Below, one piece after another: positions 57,813 to 64,000 of a DNA stretch of 64,000 nucleotides. The position numbers were made by a program, and so were the translations under genes. The notes below the pieces were generated by a model. The model was not told the origin of the DNA. It saw only the letters and a list, made by a program, of their open reading frames with translations, and did no database searches. The number at the start of each line of letters is the position of its first letter. Position 1 is the first letter of the stretch. This stretch comes from Gelidibacter salicanalis (GTDB taxonomy: Bacteria > Bacteroidota > Bacteroidia > Flavobacteriales > Flavobacteriaceae), in NCBI RefSeq assembly GCF_016469035.1, contig NZ_JAEHJZ010000004.1, positions 19,795 to 83,794 of the forward strand, written 5' to 3'.

Positions 57813-60572
57813 ATGACAAGTTTTCTAAAAGAAGTAATAGACCACATACAAAAAGAAGAGACGGATATAGCAAATCTGACCTTTATCTTGCCCAGTAAAA
57901 GGGCGGGCACATTCTTAAAGAACATTCTTTCCCAAAGCATCTCGAAAACTATTTTTGCGCCAGAAATTTTATCAATTGAAGAATTCGTTGAAGAATTGTC
58001 TGAACTTAATTACGCCACCAACACCGAGCTCCTTTTTGAGTTCTACAAGATTTACAAAGAACTCACACCAGAACCTCAACAAGAAACCTTTGATCAGTTT
58101 TCTAAATGGGGCCAACTCCTACTTCAAGATTTTAATGAAATCGATCGGTTCCTTATAGAACCAGACTATATTTTTGAATACCTAAAATCGATTAAAGAAC
58201 TAAATCATTGGTCGTTATCAGAGCCGCAGACGCCGTATATTGAGAACTATCTATCTTTTTGGAACCGTCTTAAAGTTTACTACACTAAATTTAAAGCCGA
58301 GTTAATCTTAAACAAAAAAGGATATCAAGGCTTAGTCTATAGAGAAGCAGTAAACGGCATTGAACCTTACATAGCTTCCAACCCAAACAAACAACATGTT
58401 TTTATTGGCTTTAACGCCCTAAATAAAGCTGAAGAACGCATTATCCAAGAATTGCTGCAACACAAATTAGCCAGCATTTATTGGGATATTGACCAGGCAT
58501 TTATAAACAACCCGATCCATGATGCCGGCTTATTTATAAGACAACATCTTAAAAATTGGCCCTATTTTAAACATCATAACATTCAATGGATAGGTAACAA
58601 TTACAGTGTAGCAAAGGACATTCATACCATTGCTGTTCCAAAAAACATTGGCCAAGTTAAATATATTGGAGCGTTGTTAGATAGTTTACCACTGGCCGAT
58701 TTAAAAAAGACCGCAGTTGTGTTAGGAGATGAAACGCTTTTAATGCCACTACTCAATTCTATACCTGAAAAAGTAGAGGCCATTAATATTACCATGGGCC
58801 TTCCTTTGAAATCCGTGCCTCTGGCTTCCTTATTTGATGCCCTTTTTAAGGTTCAAAAAAATCATACCAATGAACTTTATTATAAGGATGTGGTTGCCAT
58901 TTTATCGCACGCCTCTATACAATCTGTATTAACGCACAACAACATCAATTACAGCAGTCAGATTATCAATTACATCCAGAGCAACAATATTGTAACCATA
59001 ACCGTTGAGAAACTAATTGGGTTGGCAGAGTCAAAGCAAGATGTTATGAGGCTCTTATTTCAATCTTGGCATAATGACCCAGAAAAAGCACTTAAAAACT
59101 GCTCTCAACTCATCTTAACCCTAAAAGCGCATCTCGATGTAGATAAATCAAAACATCTATTGGCCTTGGAATACCTGTATCGATTCAACCAGATTTTCAA
59201 TGAACTCCAACGTTACAATACCAAGTACGCACTCATTAGCAACAGTACCACCCTCTACTATCTCTACAGAGAACTTTTAAGCAGTGAAACCTTAGATTTT
59301 CAAGGAGAACCTTTACAAGGTCTTCAAATTATGGGAATGTTGGAATCTCGTGTGCTCGATTTTGAAACGGTGATTATCTCTTCCGTTAACGAAGGCATCC
59401 TTCCGGCTGGAAAAAGTACAAATTCGTTTATTCCTTTTGATGTTAAACTTGAGAATGGCTTACCCACCTATAAAGAAAAAGATGCGGTGTATACCTATCA
59501 TTTTTACCGACTCTTACAACGTGCCAAAAACGTGTATATCATTTATAATACAGAACCTGATGTGTTAAACGGTGGTGAGAAAAGTCGTTTTATCACGCAG
59601 CTTCAAATAGAAAATATCCACGCCATCAAACATAGTATCGTGGTTCCTAAAGTGGAGGTGGCCCAAAAATCGCCCATAATTATTACAAAAACCGAATCCG
59701 TTTCCCAACAATTACAGCAAGTTGCGACCAACGGATTTTCGCCATCCTCTCTCACCAATTATATCAGAAATCCTATCGACTTTTACTATCAAAAGGTGCT
59801 GAAGATTCAGAGCTTTGAAGATGTAGAAGAAACAGTTGCAGCCAACACCTTAGGAAGTGTAATTCATCAAACTTTGGAGGACTTTTATACCCCTTATAAA
59901 GGTCAATTCTTGACAGAAGCCCATTTAAAGCAAATGAAAACCTTGATTAATGAAAGCGTCACACATCATTTTAAGTCGTTGTATAAGGAAGGCGACATGA
60001 CCAAAGGGAAGAATCTGATCATTCTTGAAGTTGCAAAACGCTATGTGTCCAATTTTATCAGTAAGGAAATGGAAACCTTAAAAGCGGGACATCAAATTAA
60101 GATTATCGATCTAGAAAAAAAACTGAACATTGAACTCAACATTCCTGAACTGGCATTTCCTGTTCATTTAAGAGGCTCTGTAGATCGAATTGACGAGTTT
60201 GATGGTACGCTGAGGATTATTGATTATAAGACAGGAAAAGTCAGCCAAGGGCAAGTAGAAATAGTCGAATGGGAAGACATGACTTCAGATTATACGAAAT
60301 ACAGTAAAAGTTTTCAAATCTTGGCTTATGCCTATATGCTCAATGAAACTGAAAGATTTGCCCAACCTATTGAAGCAGGGATTATTTCTTTCAAGAACCT
60401 TCAGGGCGACTATTTTTTAAAATTTGGAAAAAAACCATCGGCGAGAAGCAGGGACAAAGAACACAACATCTCACCAGAAACATTAGAGGCGTTTTATATA
60501 GAACTTAAAAAATTGATTTTGGAGATTTGTAATTCTGACCTGGATTTTATTGAAAAAGATGTTGAACATTAG
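57813..60572 (+). CDS. AddB-like nuclease subunit
   Basis: 919 residues. LTFILPSKRAGTFLKNIL at the start replaces the Walker A, so the helicase fold is inactive. The middle has VIISSVNEGILPAGK. The C-terminal nuclease domain holds the PD-(D/E)XK set: LGSVIHQTLEDF, LRGSVDRIDEFDG, RIIDYKTGK and QILAYAYML. The four Cys that hold an Fe-S cluster in classic AddB are not seen. With the AddA-like protein it likely forms a recombination nuclease. Confidence 0.82.
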   Translation: MTSFLKEVIDHIQKEETDIANLTFILPSKRAGTFLKNILSQSISKTIFAPEILSIEEFVEELSELNYATNTELLFEFYKIYKELTPEPQQETFDQFSKWGQLLLQDFNEIDRFLIEPDYIFEYLKSIKELNHWSLSEPQTPYIENYLSFWNRLKVYYTKFKAELILNKKGYQGLVYREAVNGIEPYIASNPNKQHVFIGFNALNKAEERIIQELLQHKLASIYWDIDQAFINNPIHDAGLFIRQHLKNWPYFKHHNIQWIGNNYSVAKDIHTIAVPKNIGQVKYIGALLDSLPLADLKKTAVVLGDETLLMPLLNSIPEKVEAINITMGLPLKSVPLASLFDALFKVQKNHTNELYYKDVVAILSHASIQSVLTHNNINYSSQIINYIQSNNIVTITVEKLIGLAESKQDVMRLLFQSWHNDPEKALKNCSQLILTLKAHLDVDKSKHLLALEYLYRFNQIFNELQRYNTKYALISNSTTLYYLYRELLSSETLDFQGEPLQGLQIMGMLESRVLDFETVIISSVNEGILPAGKSTNSFIPFDVKLENGLPTYKEKDAVYTYHFYRLLQRAKNVYIIYNTEPDVLNGGEKSRFITQLQIENIHAIKHSIVVPKVEVAQKSPIIITKTESVSQQLQQVATNGFSPSSLTNYIRNPIDFYYQKVLKIQSFEDVEETVAANTLGSVIHQTLEDFYTPYKGQFLTEAHLKQMKTLINESVTHHFKSLYKEGDMTKGKNLIILEVAKRYVSNFISKEMETLKAGHQIKIIDLEKKLNIELNIPELAFPVHLRGSVDRIDEFDGTLRIIDYKTGKVSQGQVEIVEWEDMTSDYTKYSKSFQILAYAYMLNETERFAQPIEAGIISFKNLQGDYFLKFGKKPSARSRDKEHNISPETLEAFYIELKKLILEICNSDLDFIEKDVEH

Positions 60573-62941
60573 GCCGTTTTGGATGTTAAACTTCGTAGCT
60601 GGTAAATTTTTTTCATAAGCACTTCCTTATCAACAGGTTTGGTCATATAATCATTCATCCCAATTTCTAACACTTTTTGACGTGTTTCTTGCATCGCGTC
60701 TGCAGTAACTGCAATTATGGGGATGTCTTCAATTTCGGATCCCAAGATCCCGCTGCGTATAATTTGTGTCGCTTCATAACCATCCATAATAGGCATCTGC
60801 AAATCCATTAAAATAAGATCATAAGCATCTTTTTCAAGAGCTTCCACAGCCTTCTGTCCATTGTCTACAACAACAAAACTGATGTTTTGCGAACACCCTA
60901 ACAACTTTTTCATCACCATTTGATTGAGCACATTATCTTCTACAACCAAGATATGCATTTCTGGGAATAAGCTTATTGTTAAGACTGATTCGTCCGCATA
61001 TTCCCTATGTCTAGCAACCACTTCAATAGGCAAGTCGATAAAAACACTAGTGCCTTCTCCTTCCTTGCTTTCAAATTTAATTGTTCCTTTAAAAAGGCCC
61101 ACTAGCTGCCTTACAATCGTAAGCCCAAGGCCAATGCCCCCAATTTGGCGTTTATGATCTAAACGCATTTGACTAAAACTGTCATACATATACCTTTTCA
61201 TGTCATCTTTGATTCCAATACCAGTGTCCGCAATATGAAAAGAAAAGCGCGAGTGATTTTTGGACTGAAAGGTACATTTTAGAGTGAACTTTACCTGCCC
61301 TATAGTTGTGAATTTTACAGCGTTGCACAATACATTATTGATAATTTGCACAAACCGTACAGCATCACCTTTAACAATTGCTGGAATCTCAGGATCAATC
61401 TCAAAGTGGTACTTTAACCCTTTTCTCTCTGCCTCCAGTTTCCAATTACGGCTAATCTGATTAAGCGCAATTGAAGGATCAAAATCTTCCATGGTTAACT
61501 CCAGTGCATTAGTCTCAATTTTTTCAAAATCTAATATGTCATTGATGTTGCTCAATAAGCTCAACGATGCGTTTTTGATAATCTCATAATTCTTTTTATG
61601 CTCTTGGTCAGAACGGCTACTTAATTGCATTTCTGCAATACCCATAATGGCATTAATAGGTGTTCGTAATTCATGGCTCATATTTGACATGAAATACGTT
61701 TTTAGTTGGCTTATTTCTTCTGAATTTGTCAAAGCTTCTTCTTGGGAAGTCTCTTTTTCTTCTCTCAACCTTTTGATAAGATTCGTCATGGATAACGATA
61801 AAAATATAACTTCCAAACCACTTCCAAACTTAGCACTGTTAAGCGTATAAAAATTATTCGGCAACAAACTCAAATTATTCATGACAAATCCTAAAAGCCC
61901 TACTACTAAAAAGAATATTCCAATAGAAAAAAATGAATCAACTGCCATACCTTTGTAGCGCATCACAAAAACCGTTGTCAGAATTAAAGACAAGCTTATC
62001 AATCCGTTTATATTACTCAACGGATACACAAAAGCCATCATTTTTGGGCTTATAAGTACCATTAGAAGTAAAATCCCTATCACTACATAGAAAAATTTGT
62101 ACCATTTATAGGAAGAATTGAGCTGTGTTTGGACACTTAAAAAATGCTCGCAATATTTTAGGAGAAAAAAATTGGTGGCCAATGCCGTAAACAACACAGC
62201 TTTATCATTAAAAAAGCCACCATTTGGGAATATATACTGAAAAATAAAGCCGTCCAATGTGCTTTGCAATAAGCCGATTGAAAACACATAAATGCCATAG
62301 TACAAAAAAGATTTAGCTTTTAAACTTATATAAAAAAATAAGTAGATGATTCCCGCTAAAAAAAGCATACCATAAAACAGTCCAAGAAATAACTGTTGCT
62401 TATAGTTCATGATCCAGAATGCTGTTTCTGAATACAGAGCCAATGGTAAATTAATTGTTTCACCATCACTCTTTAAATGAATATAGAATTGCTGTACTGT
62501 TTGAGGGGATAACATAATTTTAAAAACCGTGGAACGATGTGGTATTTGGCGGTCTTCAAACTTAATTTGATCACCACTTTGAAAATGGATGATACCAGAG
62601 TCTAAAGTTTGATACAAATCAGCTTTGTCAGTGACAGGACGTGCCGTTTCCAAATAATAAACAATTGGGACATCAGTGATGTTCTGCATTTTAAAACGCA
62701 TCCAATAATGGTCAGATGTAAACCCAACACTGTGATTTTCAGATTTCAGACTGTTGAATCCTGTAAATGTGTCCTGTTGTTGAAGAAACTCAGCTAGGCT
62801 GTAATCATTTTCTCCAACGTTGATAAAATCAGCGTATTCATAAAGTTCTCCCTTGCTGGTTGAAGAATTATAAATAAGATTTTGAGCTGACAAGCCAGCA
62901 CATATAAAATAGGCACAAAGTAGGAGTAGTTTTTGTTTCAT
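60569..62941 (-). CDS. Hybrid histidine kinase with 7TMR-DISM sensor and receiver domain
   Basis: 790 residues. Signal peptide, then an extracellular 7TMR-DISMED2-like domain (about 25-165) with HYWMRFKMQN, then seven membrane helices (about 175-390). HisKA holds His about 422 in SHELRTPINAIMG; HATPase has NNVLCNAVKFT, DTGIGIKDD and GIGLGLTIV. A receiver domain follows (about 668-785): ILVVEDN, LILMDLQMPIMDGYEA and TKPVDKEV. No output regulator is next to it. Its end overlaps the AddB-like gene by 4 nt. Confidence 0.92.
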   Translation of the reverse strand: MKQKLLLLCAYFICAGLSAQNLIYNSSTSKGELYEYADFINVGENDYSLAEFLQQQDTFTGFNSLKSENHSVGFTSDHYWMRFKMQNITDVPIVYYLETARPVTDKADLYQTLDSGIIHFQSGDQIKFEDRQIPHRSTVFKIMLSPQTVQQFYIHLKSDGETINLPLALYSETAFWIMNYKQQLFLGLFYGMLFLAGIIYLFFYISLKAKSFLYYGIYVFSIGLLQSTLDGFIFQYIFPNGGFFNDKAVLFTALATNFFLLKYCEHFLSVQTQLNSSYKWYKFFYVVIGILLLMVLISPKMMAFVYPLSNINGLISLSLILTTVFVMRYKGMAVDSFFSIGIFFLVVGLLGFVMNNLSLLPNNFYTLNSAKFGSGLEVIFLSLSMTNLIKRLREEKETSQEEALTNSEEISQLKTYFMSNMSHELRTPINAIMGIAEMQLSSRSDQEHKKNYEIIKNASLSLLSNINDILDFEKIETNALELTMEDFDPSIALNQISRNWKLEAERKGLKYHFEIDPEIPAIVKGDAVRFVQIINNVLCNAVKFTTIGQVKFTLKCTFQSKNHSRFSFHIADTGIGIKDDMKRYMYDSFSQMRLDHKRQIGGIGLGLTIVRQLVGLFKGTIKFESKEGEGTSVFIDLPIEVVARHREYADESVLTISLFPEMHILVVEDNVLNQMVMKKLLGCSQNISFVVVDNGQKAVEALEKDAYDLILMDLQMPIMDGYEATQIIRSGILGSEIEDIPIIAVTADAMQETRQKVLEIGMNDYMTKPVDKEVLMKKIYQLRSLTSKTA

Positions 62942-63063
62942 GGTTGGGGCCTTTAAACACTTTAAACTTACGAAAAAACAATAGATATGGTTTAAATGTA
63001 AGATTAAATAGCGTTAGAACAACATAAAAACAAAAAAGCAACGCTTTCGCATTGCTTTTCCCG

Positions 63064-63137
63064 TGGAGAAGATCGGGCTCGAACCGACGACCTCTTGGCT
63101 GCCAGCCAAGCGCTCTAGCCAACTGAGCTACATCCCC
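63064..63137 (-). tRNA. tRNA-Ala (GGC)
   Basis: 74 nt. Anticodon GGC lies in the CTGGCAG loop closed by CTTGG / CCAAG. D-arm AGCTCAGTTGGCTAGAGC and T-arm GTCGG TTCGAGC CCGAT are intact. The acceptor has the G3:U70 pair that marks alanine tRNAs; positions 6 and 67 are U:U. CCA is not encoded. Its first 10 nt also form the end of the upstream GIY-YIG gene. Confidence 0.95.
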
Positions 63138-63370
63138 AAATTATGTTTACGCCACCTTCGACCAGCGGCAGATTTTAAATACTTTTCTCTCGTTCTAGCC
63201 TCTGTTCTCGTTTCAAATTCTTCTAAATGAAACAAATCCCACGGCCGAAATGCTTTCGTTGACTTTACTTGTCCAGAATTATGTGTTTTCAGTCTCTCTT
63301 TGAAATCTGATGACATACCAACATAATAACGGTCAAATTTAATACTATATATGATATAAACAACATACAT
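63128..63370 (-). CDS. Small GIY-YIG nuclease, copy 1
   Basis: 80 residues. YVVYIIYS and RYYVGMSSDFKERLKTHNSG form the GIY-YIG core with the catalytic Arg; the Glu lies in EARTREKYLK. This stand-alone type (YhbQ/UPF0213-like) is often wrongly named UvrC. The last codons TTG-GGG-ATG and stop TAG are the 5' GGGGATGTAG of tRNA-Ala, so the gene overlaps the tRNA by 10 nt on the same strand. Copy 2 differs by two residues. It is encoded just upstream of the tRNA it overlaps. Confidence 0.88.
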   Translation of the reverse strand: MYVVYIIYSIKFDRYYVGMSSDFKERLKTHNSGQVKSTKAFRPWDLFHLEEFETRTEARTREKYLKSAAGRRWRKHNLGM

Positions 63371-63392
63371 AATGTCCAGCCTTAAAGCGCTC

Positions 63393-63424
63393 CCCGCCCG
63401 TACCGAACGGTACGTTCGGGCGGG
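63393..63424. repeat. 32-nt palindrome P1
   Basis: Starts CCCGCCCGTACC, ends CGGGCGGG, with an inner CGTACC / GGTACG. It sits exactly between GAGCGCTT-side and TAGCC-side tRNA pieces and is absent from the intact tRNA. Confidence 0.8.
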
Positions 63425-63436
63425 TAGCCAACTGAG

Positions 63437-63464
63437 CCTGCCCCAATGAATTCGTTCAGGCGGG
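63437..63464. repeat. 28-nt palindrome P2
   Basis: Starts CCTGCCCC, ends TTCAGGCGGG, with inner AATGAATTCGTT. It sits just after the GIY-YIG copy 2 stop codon, between tRNA positions 10 and 11. Confidence 0.8.
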
Positions 63465-63707
63465 CTACATCCCCAAATTATGTTTGCGCCACCTTCGACC
63501 AGTGGCAGATTTTAAATACTTTTCTTTCGTTCTAGCCTCTGTTCTCGTTTCAAATTCTTCTAAATGAAACAAATCCCACGGCCGAAATGCCTTCGTTGAC
63601 TTTACTTGTCCAGAATTATGTGTTTTCAGTCTCTCTTTGAAATCTGATGACATACCAACATAATAGCGGTCAAATTTAATACTATATATGATATAAACAA
63701 CATACAT
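63465..63707 (-). CDS. Small GIY-YIG nuclease, copy 2
   Basis: 80 residues, identical to copy 1 except Arg to Lys in EARTKEKYLK and Ala to Thr in KSATGRRWRK. The catalytic core is intact, so both copies could be active. It also ends GGGGATG-TAG, but here the tRNA sequence stops being a working tRNA because palindromes interrupt it. Upstream DNA (63708-63729) is the same as in copy 1. Confidence 0.88.
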   Translation of the reverse strand: MYVVYIIYSIKFDRYYVGMSSDFKERLKTHNSGQVKSTKAFRPWDLFHLEEFETRTEARTKEKYLKSATGRRWRKHNLGM

Positions 63708-63729
63708 AATGTCCAGCCTTAAAGCGCTC

Positions 63730-63761
63730 CCCGCCCGTACCGAACGGTACGTTCGGGCGGG
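63730..63761. repeat. 32-nt palindrome P1, second copy
   Basis: Identical to the element at 63393-63424. Confidence 0.8.
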
Positions 63762-63773
63762 TAGCCAACTGAG

Positions 63774-63801
63774 CCTGCCCCAATGAATTCGTTCAGGCGG
63801 G
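63774..63801. repeat. 28-nt palindrome P2, second copy
   Basis: Identical to the element at 63437-63464. Confidence 0.8.
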
Positions 63802-63830
63802 CCTGCCCGAATAAAATTCGTTTAGGCGGG
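63802..63830. repeat. 29-nt palindrome P3
   Basis: Starts CCTGCCCGAAT, ends TTTAGGCGGG; a diverged relative of P2 lying head to tail with it. Confidence 0.8.
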
Positions 63831-63899
63831 CTACATCCCCAAATTATGTTTACGCCACCTTCGACCAGCGGCAGATTTTAAATACTTTTCTCTCGTTCT
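63831..63899 (-). pseudogene. 3' remnant of a third GIY-YIG copy
   Basis: 69 nt identical to the end of copy 1, covering the last 22 codons and the stop. It breaks off sharply after TTCTCTCGTTCT. The last 100 nt of the window (63900-64000) hold no gene that I can support. Confidence 0.85.
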
Positions 63900-64000
63900 T
63901 CTCGCTTTTATGGTTTGAAATTTTATTTTAAACCACCTAAAACCAGCACTGGCAGTGTGGAGCTATTAAAATCTTTTTTAAGAATGGTATTATTCTCCCA

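Follow-up and report, generated by a model that had tools for sequence, protein, structure and literature searches.

Near the end of a 64,000-nt stretch of the genome of the marine bacterium Gelidibacter salicanalis (hereafter the window), small genes encoding GIY-YIG proteins are joined in tandem to copies of the 5' part of a tRNA gene. The intact gene, a tRNA-Ala(GGC) at 63063-63137 on the minus strand, is the only tRNA called by ARAGORN in the window (63.3 bits for the Rfam tRNA family in the overlapping locus L035) and presumably represents the regenerated target. The tRNA-Ala pattern was matched only once in the whole assembly (5.16 Mb in 682 contigs). Read 5' to 3' on the minus strand, the locus is composed of the remnant of a third gene copy, a broken tRNA half, a full open reading frame (ORF), another broken half, another full ORF, and the tRNA-Ala.

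The two full ORFs (copy 1 at 63128-63370, copy 2 at 63465-63707, both on the minus strand) encode 80 residues each. They form a tight array, are identical at 238 of 243 nt (98%), and match the Pfam GIY-YIG profile (PF01541) with E-values around 2e-17, above the cut-off. Each terminates within a tRNA-Ala 5' end, where the TAG of tRNA index 8-10 serves as stop codon: copy 1 in the intact tRNA, and copy 2 in the first displaced half. Copy 3 retains residues 51-80 (63834-63923, minus strand, match coordinates converted to the window), and beyond it the DNA continues into a gene for a universal stress protein (Pfam Usp), which reaches past the window end.

The first displaced half (63371-63474, minus strand), aligned from 63474 to 63371, matches index 1-30 of the tRNA exactly, except for two inserts that are both GC-rich palindromes. 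One, of 28 nt, follows index 9 (63438-63465, minus strand); the other, of 32 nt, follows index 22 (63393-63424, minus strand) and belongs to the CCCGCCCG type, whose counts are given below. After index 30 come TAA, GGCTGG (index 31-36, register by eye) and ACATT, followed by the ATG start codon. The second displaced half (63708-63840, minus strand) has the same two inserts and one extra palindrome. A strict search of the window (arm 9, loop ≤ 10) missed the imperfect palindromes; looser searches came after it. A spliced alignment of the tRNA start to this locus scores 16, against 9 or less in eight shuffles. The initial annotation, made from the sequence alone, had described the intact tRNA-Ala, the two near-identical genes and the cut third copy, their junction to the first 30 nt of the tRNA, the similarity up to the anticodon, and the lack of an integrase. 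All this was confirmed, the last point by a Pfam scan of the nine ORFs neighbouring the window locus, which revealed no integrase and left one ORF without a family.

Distribution, architecture and empty sites

The window protein matches 176 of the 299 sampled genomes of the family Flavobacteriaceae (E ≤ 1e-3). We took the family loci from the better matches listed, together with named loci, the weaker matches (down to 1e-3) lying outside the set. Removal of repeats, identical proteins, fragments shorter than 60 residues and partial contig ends left 132 distinct loci. An intact tRNA on the same strand adjoins the gene in 112 of them, either at its 3' end (91 loci, the 5' type) or within 260 nt on its 5' side (21 loci). 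A further 13 loci have tRNA fragments only, and seven have no tRNA fragment detectable by BLAST: two of these have a protein-gene target (see below), four show remnants resembling tRNA 3' ends by eye (L139, L173, L185, L194), and the last is L137. None of the 132 loci has a tRNA on the opposite strand within 300 nt of the gene. General tRNA numbers would put the adjacency expected by chance at around 1% or less.

A profile search at the level of the phylum matched 225 of 345 genomes (at 1e-5). We read 28 of 30 fetched loci (L225-L252), of which 25 have an adjacent tRNA on the same strand (four of them already in the family set), three have none, and no tRNA is on the opposite strand. The adjoining tRNAs include those for Ala, Arg, Met, Leu, Pro, Asn, Asp, Ser and Cys, and more than 12 isoacceptors in total. 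Single genomes can have several different targets, and several genomes encode arrays of three to eight copies. In three named loci of Neomarinimicrobiota and Verrucomicrobia, too, a tRNA lies on the same strand 5' of the gene, with the old half absent by BLAST.

The loci follow two architectures that mirror each other, and each divides the tRNA close to its anticodon. In 5'-type loci, the 5' part of the same tRNA is found upstream of the start codon, as revealed by spliced alignment of its first 46 nt. This analysis was run on 96 loci with eight shuffles each, and hand removal of the partial loci L216, L220, L221 and L222 left 92. The true alignment outscored all eight shuffles in 89 of these 92 loci (L011, L169 and L171 being the misses). 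The old 5' half stops at or before index 38 in 74 of the 77 non-Pro loci, and at index 30-38 in 23, the anticodon lying at 35-37. L036 is among the best preserved: in three units its old half includes the anticodon and ends with ...GATTTCGG, a single base away from the start codon. The 3' type is the mirror image: the intact tRNA and a terminator, then the gene, then the old 3' half. The latter starts at index 27-31 in L033, L131, L136, L155 and L213; in other loci its start lies further into the tRNA, frequently after a palindrome. For L004 and L052 the tRNA-Ser on the 5' side is merely a neighbour, the target being a tRNA-Pro.

Some loci have particular arrangements. In L033 a palindrome at the anticodon stem interrupts the tRNA-Arg that comes after the nuclease gene, and an intact copy lies upstream. 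In L037, L158 and L174 the gene is preceded by a tRNA 3' half that starts at index 32-33, and there is no 5' half; these may be ectopic cassettes or deletion products. In two other genomes of the family (L179 and L197), the order is old gene start, GIY-YIG gene and new gene start, and the target is a protein gene with the start LITGGAGFIG (both by eye), which we take to be of the NAD-epimerase type. The split build would thus extend beyond tRNA genes.

Occupied and empty alleles occur at the same sites, as is the case for free-standing homing elements. We collected tRNA-Arg(TCG) loci with a pattern independent of the nuclease, which matched 96 of 120 genomes, and fetched and read 30 loci. In 29 of the 30, a gene presumably of the YqeY type precedes the tRNA. 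There was no GIY-YIG match to the window protein in 28 of the 30, a count that could miss distant 3'-type genes because the window protein was the sole query. The gap between the upstream gene, where present, and the tRNA spans 8-91 nt in the empty loci. Of the two filled loci, L093 has the gene 5' of the tRNA (gap of 358 nt) and L081 has it 3' of the tRNA. In three pairs of loci from the same genus, the empty gaps are 11, 54 and 11 nt and the filled ones 331, 367 and 365 nt. Ten genomes of the window's genus, with one match each to the tRNA-Ala(GGC) pattern, have a full or nearly full gene in four cases (one decayed), a C-terminal relic of the gene before the tRNA-Ala in five, and no detectable gene in one. 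A further 28 tRNA-Ala loci of the family served only as controls and tRNA sources. These differences between empty and filled sites are those expected from insertion.

Taken together, the loci probably contain a minimal mobile element of the homing type, consisting of a nuclease gene of around 80 codons and a substitute half of the invaded tRNA gene. The nuclease would break an uninterrupted tRNA gene at the anticodon region, and repair by recombination from a copy of the element would insert it at the break. In the 5' type this would produce the native leader, the old 5' half, the nuclease gene, the new 5' half and the native 3' half. The predicted order for the 3' type is the native 5' half, the new 3' half with its terminator, the nuclease gene, the old 3' half and the native terminator. 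The tRNA would remain whole, while the old half, carrying palindromes, would decay. Tandem arrays may reflect re-invasion of the restored tRNA, or unequal exchange. Later decay of the nuclease gene would leave relics.

The locus thus looks like one instance of a widespread and very small mobile element in Bacteroidota. tRNA genes are essential, and this tRNA-Ala is single in the assembly, yet at many sites such genes have been divided and restored around a gene that looks selfish. If this is correct, homing occurs naturally in bacterial chromosomes without introns or inteins, and it accounts for many small genes annotated as GIY-YIG and for broken tRNA fragments in Bacteroidota. tRNA halves and terminators would then travel between genomes, and the family would provide a set of tiny nucleases with predictable targets in tRNA genes.

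Origin of the new tRNA half

The 3' type is informative on the origin of the half because its unit includes the terminator. We classified terminator types by eye. In the 30 printed 3'-type loci, the terminators on the two sides differ in eight (L131, L142, L148, L155, L178, L235, L236, L249), are alike in eight (L135, L136, L165, L176, L213, L241, L242, L244), and are near or ambiguous in the remaining ones. In L155 the variable arm of the tRNA-Leu also differs between the copies.

We searched 28 genomes of the genus g312, of which 26 matched. Of the 30 loci, seven lacked a tRNA-Met call and one was a repeat, which left 22 to be read. Seven of these are filled, two are cut by the contig end just inside the gene, three are uninformative at contig ends, five have the element-type terminator without the gene, and five have other terminators without the gene. 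Among the last five only L294 and L301 are clean empties; L283, for example, has other repeats. One terminator type follows the tRNA in all seven filled loci. These new terminators have a mean alignment score of 26.0 among themselves and of 6.5 against those of L294 and L301; they score 6.2 against their own old terminators in the four loci where the two differ.

The DNA of L297 from nt 374 past the tRNA aligns with that of the empty L294 from nt 1 past its tRNA (85%, 1e-24), and the DNA of L303 from nt 398 aligns with L294 from nt 7 (77%, 1e-12). A native flank motif lies 62, 60 and 54 nt past the tRNA in the gene-free L294, L301 and L298, and 435, 453 and 405 nt past it in the filled L297, L303 and L299. 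It is at 461 nt in L293, which has gene-less units, and was not found in the other loci. In a second genus, we searched 41 genomes and scanned 31 loci at the last tRNA-fMet, of which three are filled. In one of these, L235, the new terminator resembles that of the filled L276, and the old half is followed by a terminator common in gene-free relatives (e.g., L266, L277 and L282). Native terminators are therefore displaced in L297, L303 and L235, and a donor-supplied half is supported in these three loci of two genera.

Other loci of g312 lack the gene. In L293 and L291 an intact tRNA-fMet is followed by tandem units of around 133 nt, each combining a terminator, a spacer, a palindrome and a tRNA 3' end, with the nuclease gene absent; the last unit of L293 borders on the native flank. 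The units seem to be gene-less derivatives of the element. L287, L289, L292, L298 and L302 have a tRNA-fMet and the element-type terminator without a called nuclease gene, and L292 retains a decayed gene start by eye. These five are possible footprints of lost elements.

For the 5' type, which is that of the window, we looked for marks of a donor in the tRNA itself. Acceptor stems pair about equally well in filled and gene-free loci, with no foreign 5' half visible. The D-arm type of the tRNA-Arg(TCG) does not separate them either (5 of 18 filled and 8 of 31 gene-free typed loci, Fisher p = 1.0, leaving out one locus of another type and two 3'-type loci). We rejected both features as donor marks; that the new 5' half came from a donor is an inference.

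Could the halves stem from ordinary tandem duplication? A host GIY-YIG gene lying by chance beside a tRNA would then have been copied with the tRNA start by unequal exchange. The 98% identity of the tightly arrayed window copies, the arrays of three to eight copies and the like terminators on both sides of eight 3'-type loci would be explained in this way. Duplication does not account for neighbours of more than 12 isoacceptors, for a protein gene with the same split build, or for the common empty tRNA-Arg(TCG) sites. Nor does it account for tRNA-proximal terminators that are common across genomes and unlike the displaced ones in L284, L290, L297, L303 and L235. It explains the growth of arrays and not the first insertion; we rejected it as the origin of the build and consider it very improbable.

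A long duplication of the half already present in the recipient could also arise at the target site through staggered cuts, one at the end of the tRNA and one at the anticodon, made by an element without any tRNA half. New 5' halves do pair with native 3' halves across tRNAs of differing acceptor sequence, and filled loci show no switching of D-arms. The eight loci with like terminators, and L274 of the second genus with the native type on both sides, are also as this mechanism predicts. Against it, the two terminators are unlike in L284, L290, L297, L303 and L235, and gene-free relatives have a terminator similar to the distal one of L297, L303 and L235. Target-site duplication is unlikely as an explanation, although it may hold for the 5' type.

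Several points weigh against the homing element. DNA cutting by the nuclease, recombinational repair and mobility are presumed. The restored tRNA retains the presumed target, which leaves self-avoidance unexplained. Old copies extend beyond the anticodon in L156, L159 and L209, and units of the Pro type can carry a whole old tRNA-Pro with palindromes. Where the tRNA lies 5' of the gene, BLAST found a displaced fragment of that tRNA in only 11 of 21 loci, and found none in L143, L147, L154, L182, L184, L217, L218 and L219. The similar acceptor stems and D-arms of filled and gene-free 5'-type loci belong here, as do the terminators that are alike in eight of the 30 3'-type loci; such loci fit re-invasion, duplication or target-site duplication. 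The element-type terminator is present on both sides in L296 and L299, and the native type on both sides in L274, which duplication also explains. For the old terminators of L284 and L290 no empty relative gave a match, and the new terminator of L284 is nearer to that of the gene-free L293 than its old one is. Finally, the gene-less element-type terminators (5 of the 22 loci) could come partly from shared ancestry.

The initial annotation had proposed that a unit made of the nuclease gene and a replacement 5' tRNA half inserts at the anticodon region, keeps the tRNA whole and leaves the old half behind. Insertion, a whole tRNA and a leftover half are supported by the 89 of 92 loci with an old 5' half and by the empty and filled sites. 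The replacement half is supported in the 3' type, by the terminators of L297, L303 and L235; in the 5' type, acceptor stems and D-arms give no such distinction. Two of the checks that the annotation had suggested turned out in its favour: GIY-YIG genes lie beside same-strand tRNAs in the family (112 of 132 loci) and the phylum (25 of 28), and relatives have empty and filled sites (tRNA-Arg(TCG), the three same-genus pairs and the ten genomes of the window's genus). On the whole the proposal is partly supported: its main points are right, and they apply far beyond the window. The palindromic inserts, the mirror architecture, the Pro type with a whole tRNA, the protein-gene target and the gene-less units had not been foreseen.

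Nuclease and palindromes

The proteins belong to the GIY-YIG superfamily: V4, Y5, Y16, G18, R26, H30, T38, E62 and K66 are invariant in 18 aligned rows, and we take some of them to be catalytic. In a tree of 132 proteins, the 17 target labels require 26 changes, against 92.7 when shuffled (0 of 200 shuffles as low); the tree is built on 78 columns with mostly weak forks, some labels were set by hand, and near-copies cluster labels. The Pro type (17 rows) needs one change, the Leu 5' type (20 rows) three, and the Met 3' type (12 rows) two, the latter being apart from the Met 5' type. The Arg 5' type (26 rows) is scattered over the tree and needs nine. The clade of the protein thus appears to predict the target to a large extent. 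The ratio of non-synonymous to synonymous substitution rates has a median of 0.21 within labels (351 unsaturated pairs, all below 1), and the gene is under purifying selection. An in-frame stop is present in five of the 132 loci.

The nearest solved structures by sequence are UPF0213 proteins (PDB 1ywl, E = 6e-5, and 1zg2, E = 0.01), a weak match to this group of small GIY-YIG proteins. The UPF0213-type protein Ssn of Neisseria is a single-strand nuclease linked to repeats that it cleaves in single-stranded DNA. The window protein has no tblastn match at 1e-3 in a phage collection of 50,697 records, and no match at 1e-3 in plasmids, and on this basis we rejected a phage or plasmid carrier.

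The ORF stop lies inside or touches the tRNA in 63 of the 91 5'-type loci, most commonly at index 8-10 (38 loci) and 21-23 (16 loci); therefore, translation and tRNA processing may be coupled. This overlap and the purifying selection would suit a system serving the host, in which an RNase that cuts or processes the tRNA, e.g., a stress or toxin-like device, is kept beside its substrate. Such a system accords poorly with decay and relics within one genus and with gene-free relatives. Mobility, and not host function, predicts several targets per genome, a protein-gene target and displaced halves. We regard a host system as the least credible of the explanations, with hardly any probability of being correct.

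Palindromes are closely associated with the loci. Of the 92 5'-type loci, 52 have strict GC-rich palindromes in the 150 nt before the start codon, against none of the 56 tRNA-Arg and tRNA-Ala loci that lack the gene (two of the 58 fetched were dropped); elsewhere their density is 0.013 per 150 nt. Patterns for palindrome families were positive in 87 of 132 loci and in 5 of 3100 background tiles, counts that are descriptive since the patterns were written after the examples. The CCTGCC type is found in 19 of 20 Leu 5' loci, the TCCGCC type in 11 of 12 Met 3' loci, the CACGC type in 12 of 17 Pro loci, and the CCCGCCCG type in 11 of 20 Ala 5' loci. These patterns revealed no palindrome in the Asp, Ser, Asn and epimerase loci. 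Inserts of the 5' type mostly follow tRNA index 8-11 and 22-23. One genome can hold different families, e.g., the window genome has CCCGCCCG at Ala and CACGC at Pro, whereas in genome G190 one palindrome family is common to all its elements. As a guess, the palindromes might interrupt the direct repeat that the tRNA halves form, and thereby block both recombinational loss and misfolding of the transcript.

Elsewhere in the window genome, family members are found at a tRNA-Asn (L003, G000:C325:402956-403174) and at a broken tRNA-Pro (L004, G000:C13:4-219). Their palindromes differ from those at the tRNA-Ala (judged by eye for L003).

We find it rather likely, if less so than the homing element as such, that these units constitute a class of mobile elements that spans the phylum and ranks with the smallest known. 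Each would comprise one nuclease gene of around 80 codons and a substitute half of an essential tRNA, with a terminator in the 3' type. They would repeatedly invade anticodon regions and make chimeric tRNA genes, specialise by target and spawn gene-less passenger units. They would also carry or provoke palindromes that break up the displaced half, against loss of the element by recombination and misfolding with the live tRNA.

Related systems and neighbouring genes

Among the closest counterparts are the mobile ORFs (mORFs) of fungal mitochondria, which form hybrid atp6, atp9, cox2 and nad3 genes, the atp6 of Allomyces being the first case cited (PMC3630166). They also combine an endonuclease gene with a substitute gene end, displace the native end downstream and make a hybrid gene, and the atp9 case uses a GIY-YIG enzyme (PMC3630166). 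The mORFs described there lie in mitochondrial protein genes, on the C-terminal side, whereas the targets here are bacterial tRNA genes and one protein gene (L179, L197). The available part of that account mentions no tRNA target, 5' mirror type or palindromes (PMC3630166). A donor-supplied gene end with a displaced native end, as in mORFs, is found in the 3'-type L297, L303 and L235; in the 5' type of the window the displaced half is visible, and acceptor stems and D-arms are alike in filled and gene-free loci. The statement of the initial annotation that no named element has this build therefore needs a qualification, as the build exists in fungal protein genes. Among the matches listed, the titles and opening abstract lines of the open literature, with subscription papers mostly outside, contain no bacterial element of such build. 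The accessible part of a survey of GIY-YIG proteins describes no such arrangement (PMC1564403).

Cutting in tRNA genes is known from SegB of phages T4 and T6, a free-standing GIY-YIG homing endonuclease (PMC13096335). SegB has the same fold, is often encoded beside tRNAs, and tandem tRNA-segB repeats arise. It is a phage gene, and insertion inside a tRNA with a displaced half is not described in the part of the report available (PMC13096335). The tblastn search of the phage collection at 1e-3 revealed no likeness to SegB-type enzymes, SegB itself not being aligned. The build is known from mORFs and the cutting of tRNA genes from SegB; the target, the scale and the palindromes are unusual.

Group I introns and their endonucleases in tRNA genes also target the anticodon region, including that of tRNA-fMet (PMC3984707, as far as its available part indicates). 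They share the target region with the element described here, which keeps the tRNA by a second half and not by splicing. Intron families remained below the gathering threshold in the 11 loci searched (L035, L036, L093, L297, L213, L037, L049-L053), and we rejected a group I intron. Elements that integrate into tRNA genes by a recombinase differ by their integrase, which is absent from the nine ORFs beside the window locus.

Downstream of the tRNA-Ala, the window encodes a hybrid sensor kinase with 7TMR-DISM, HisKA, HATPase and receiver domains (60569-62941, minus strand). It is followed, on the plus strand, by a large protein with a PD-(D/E)XK nuclease domain at its C-terminus (57813-60572).

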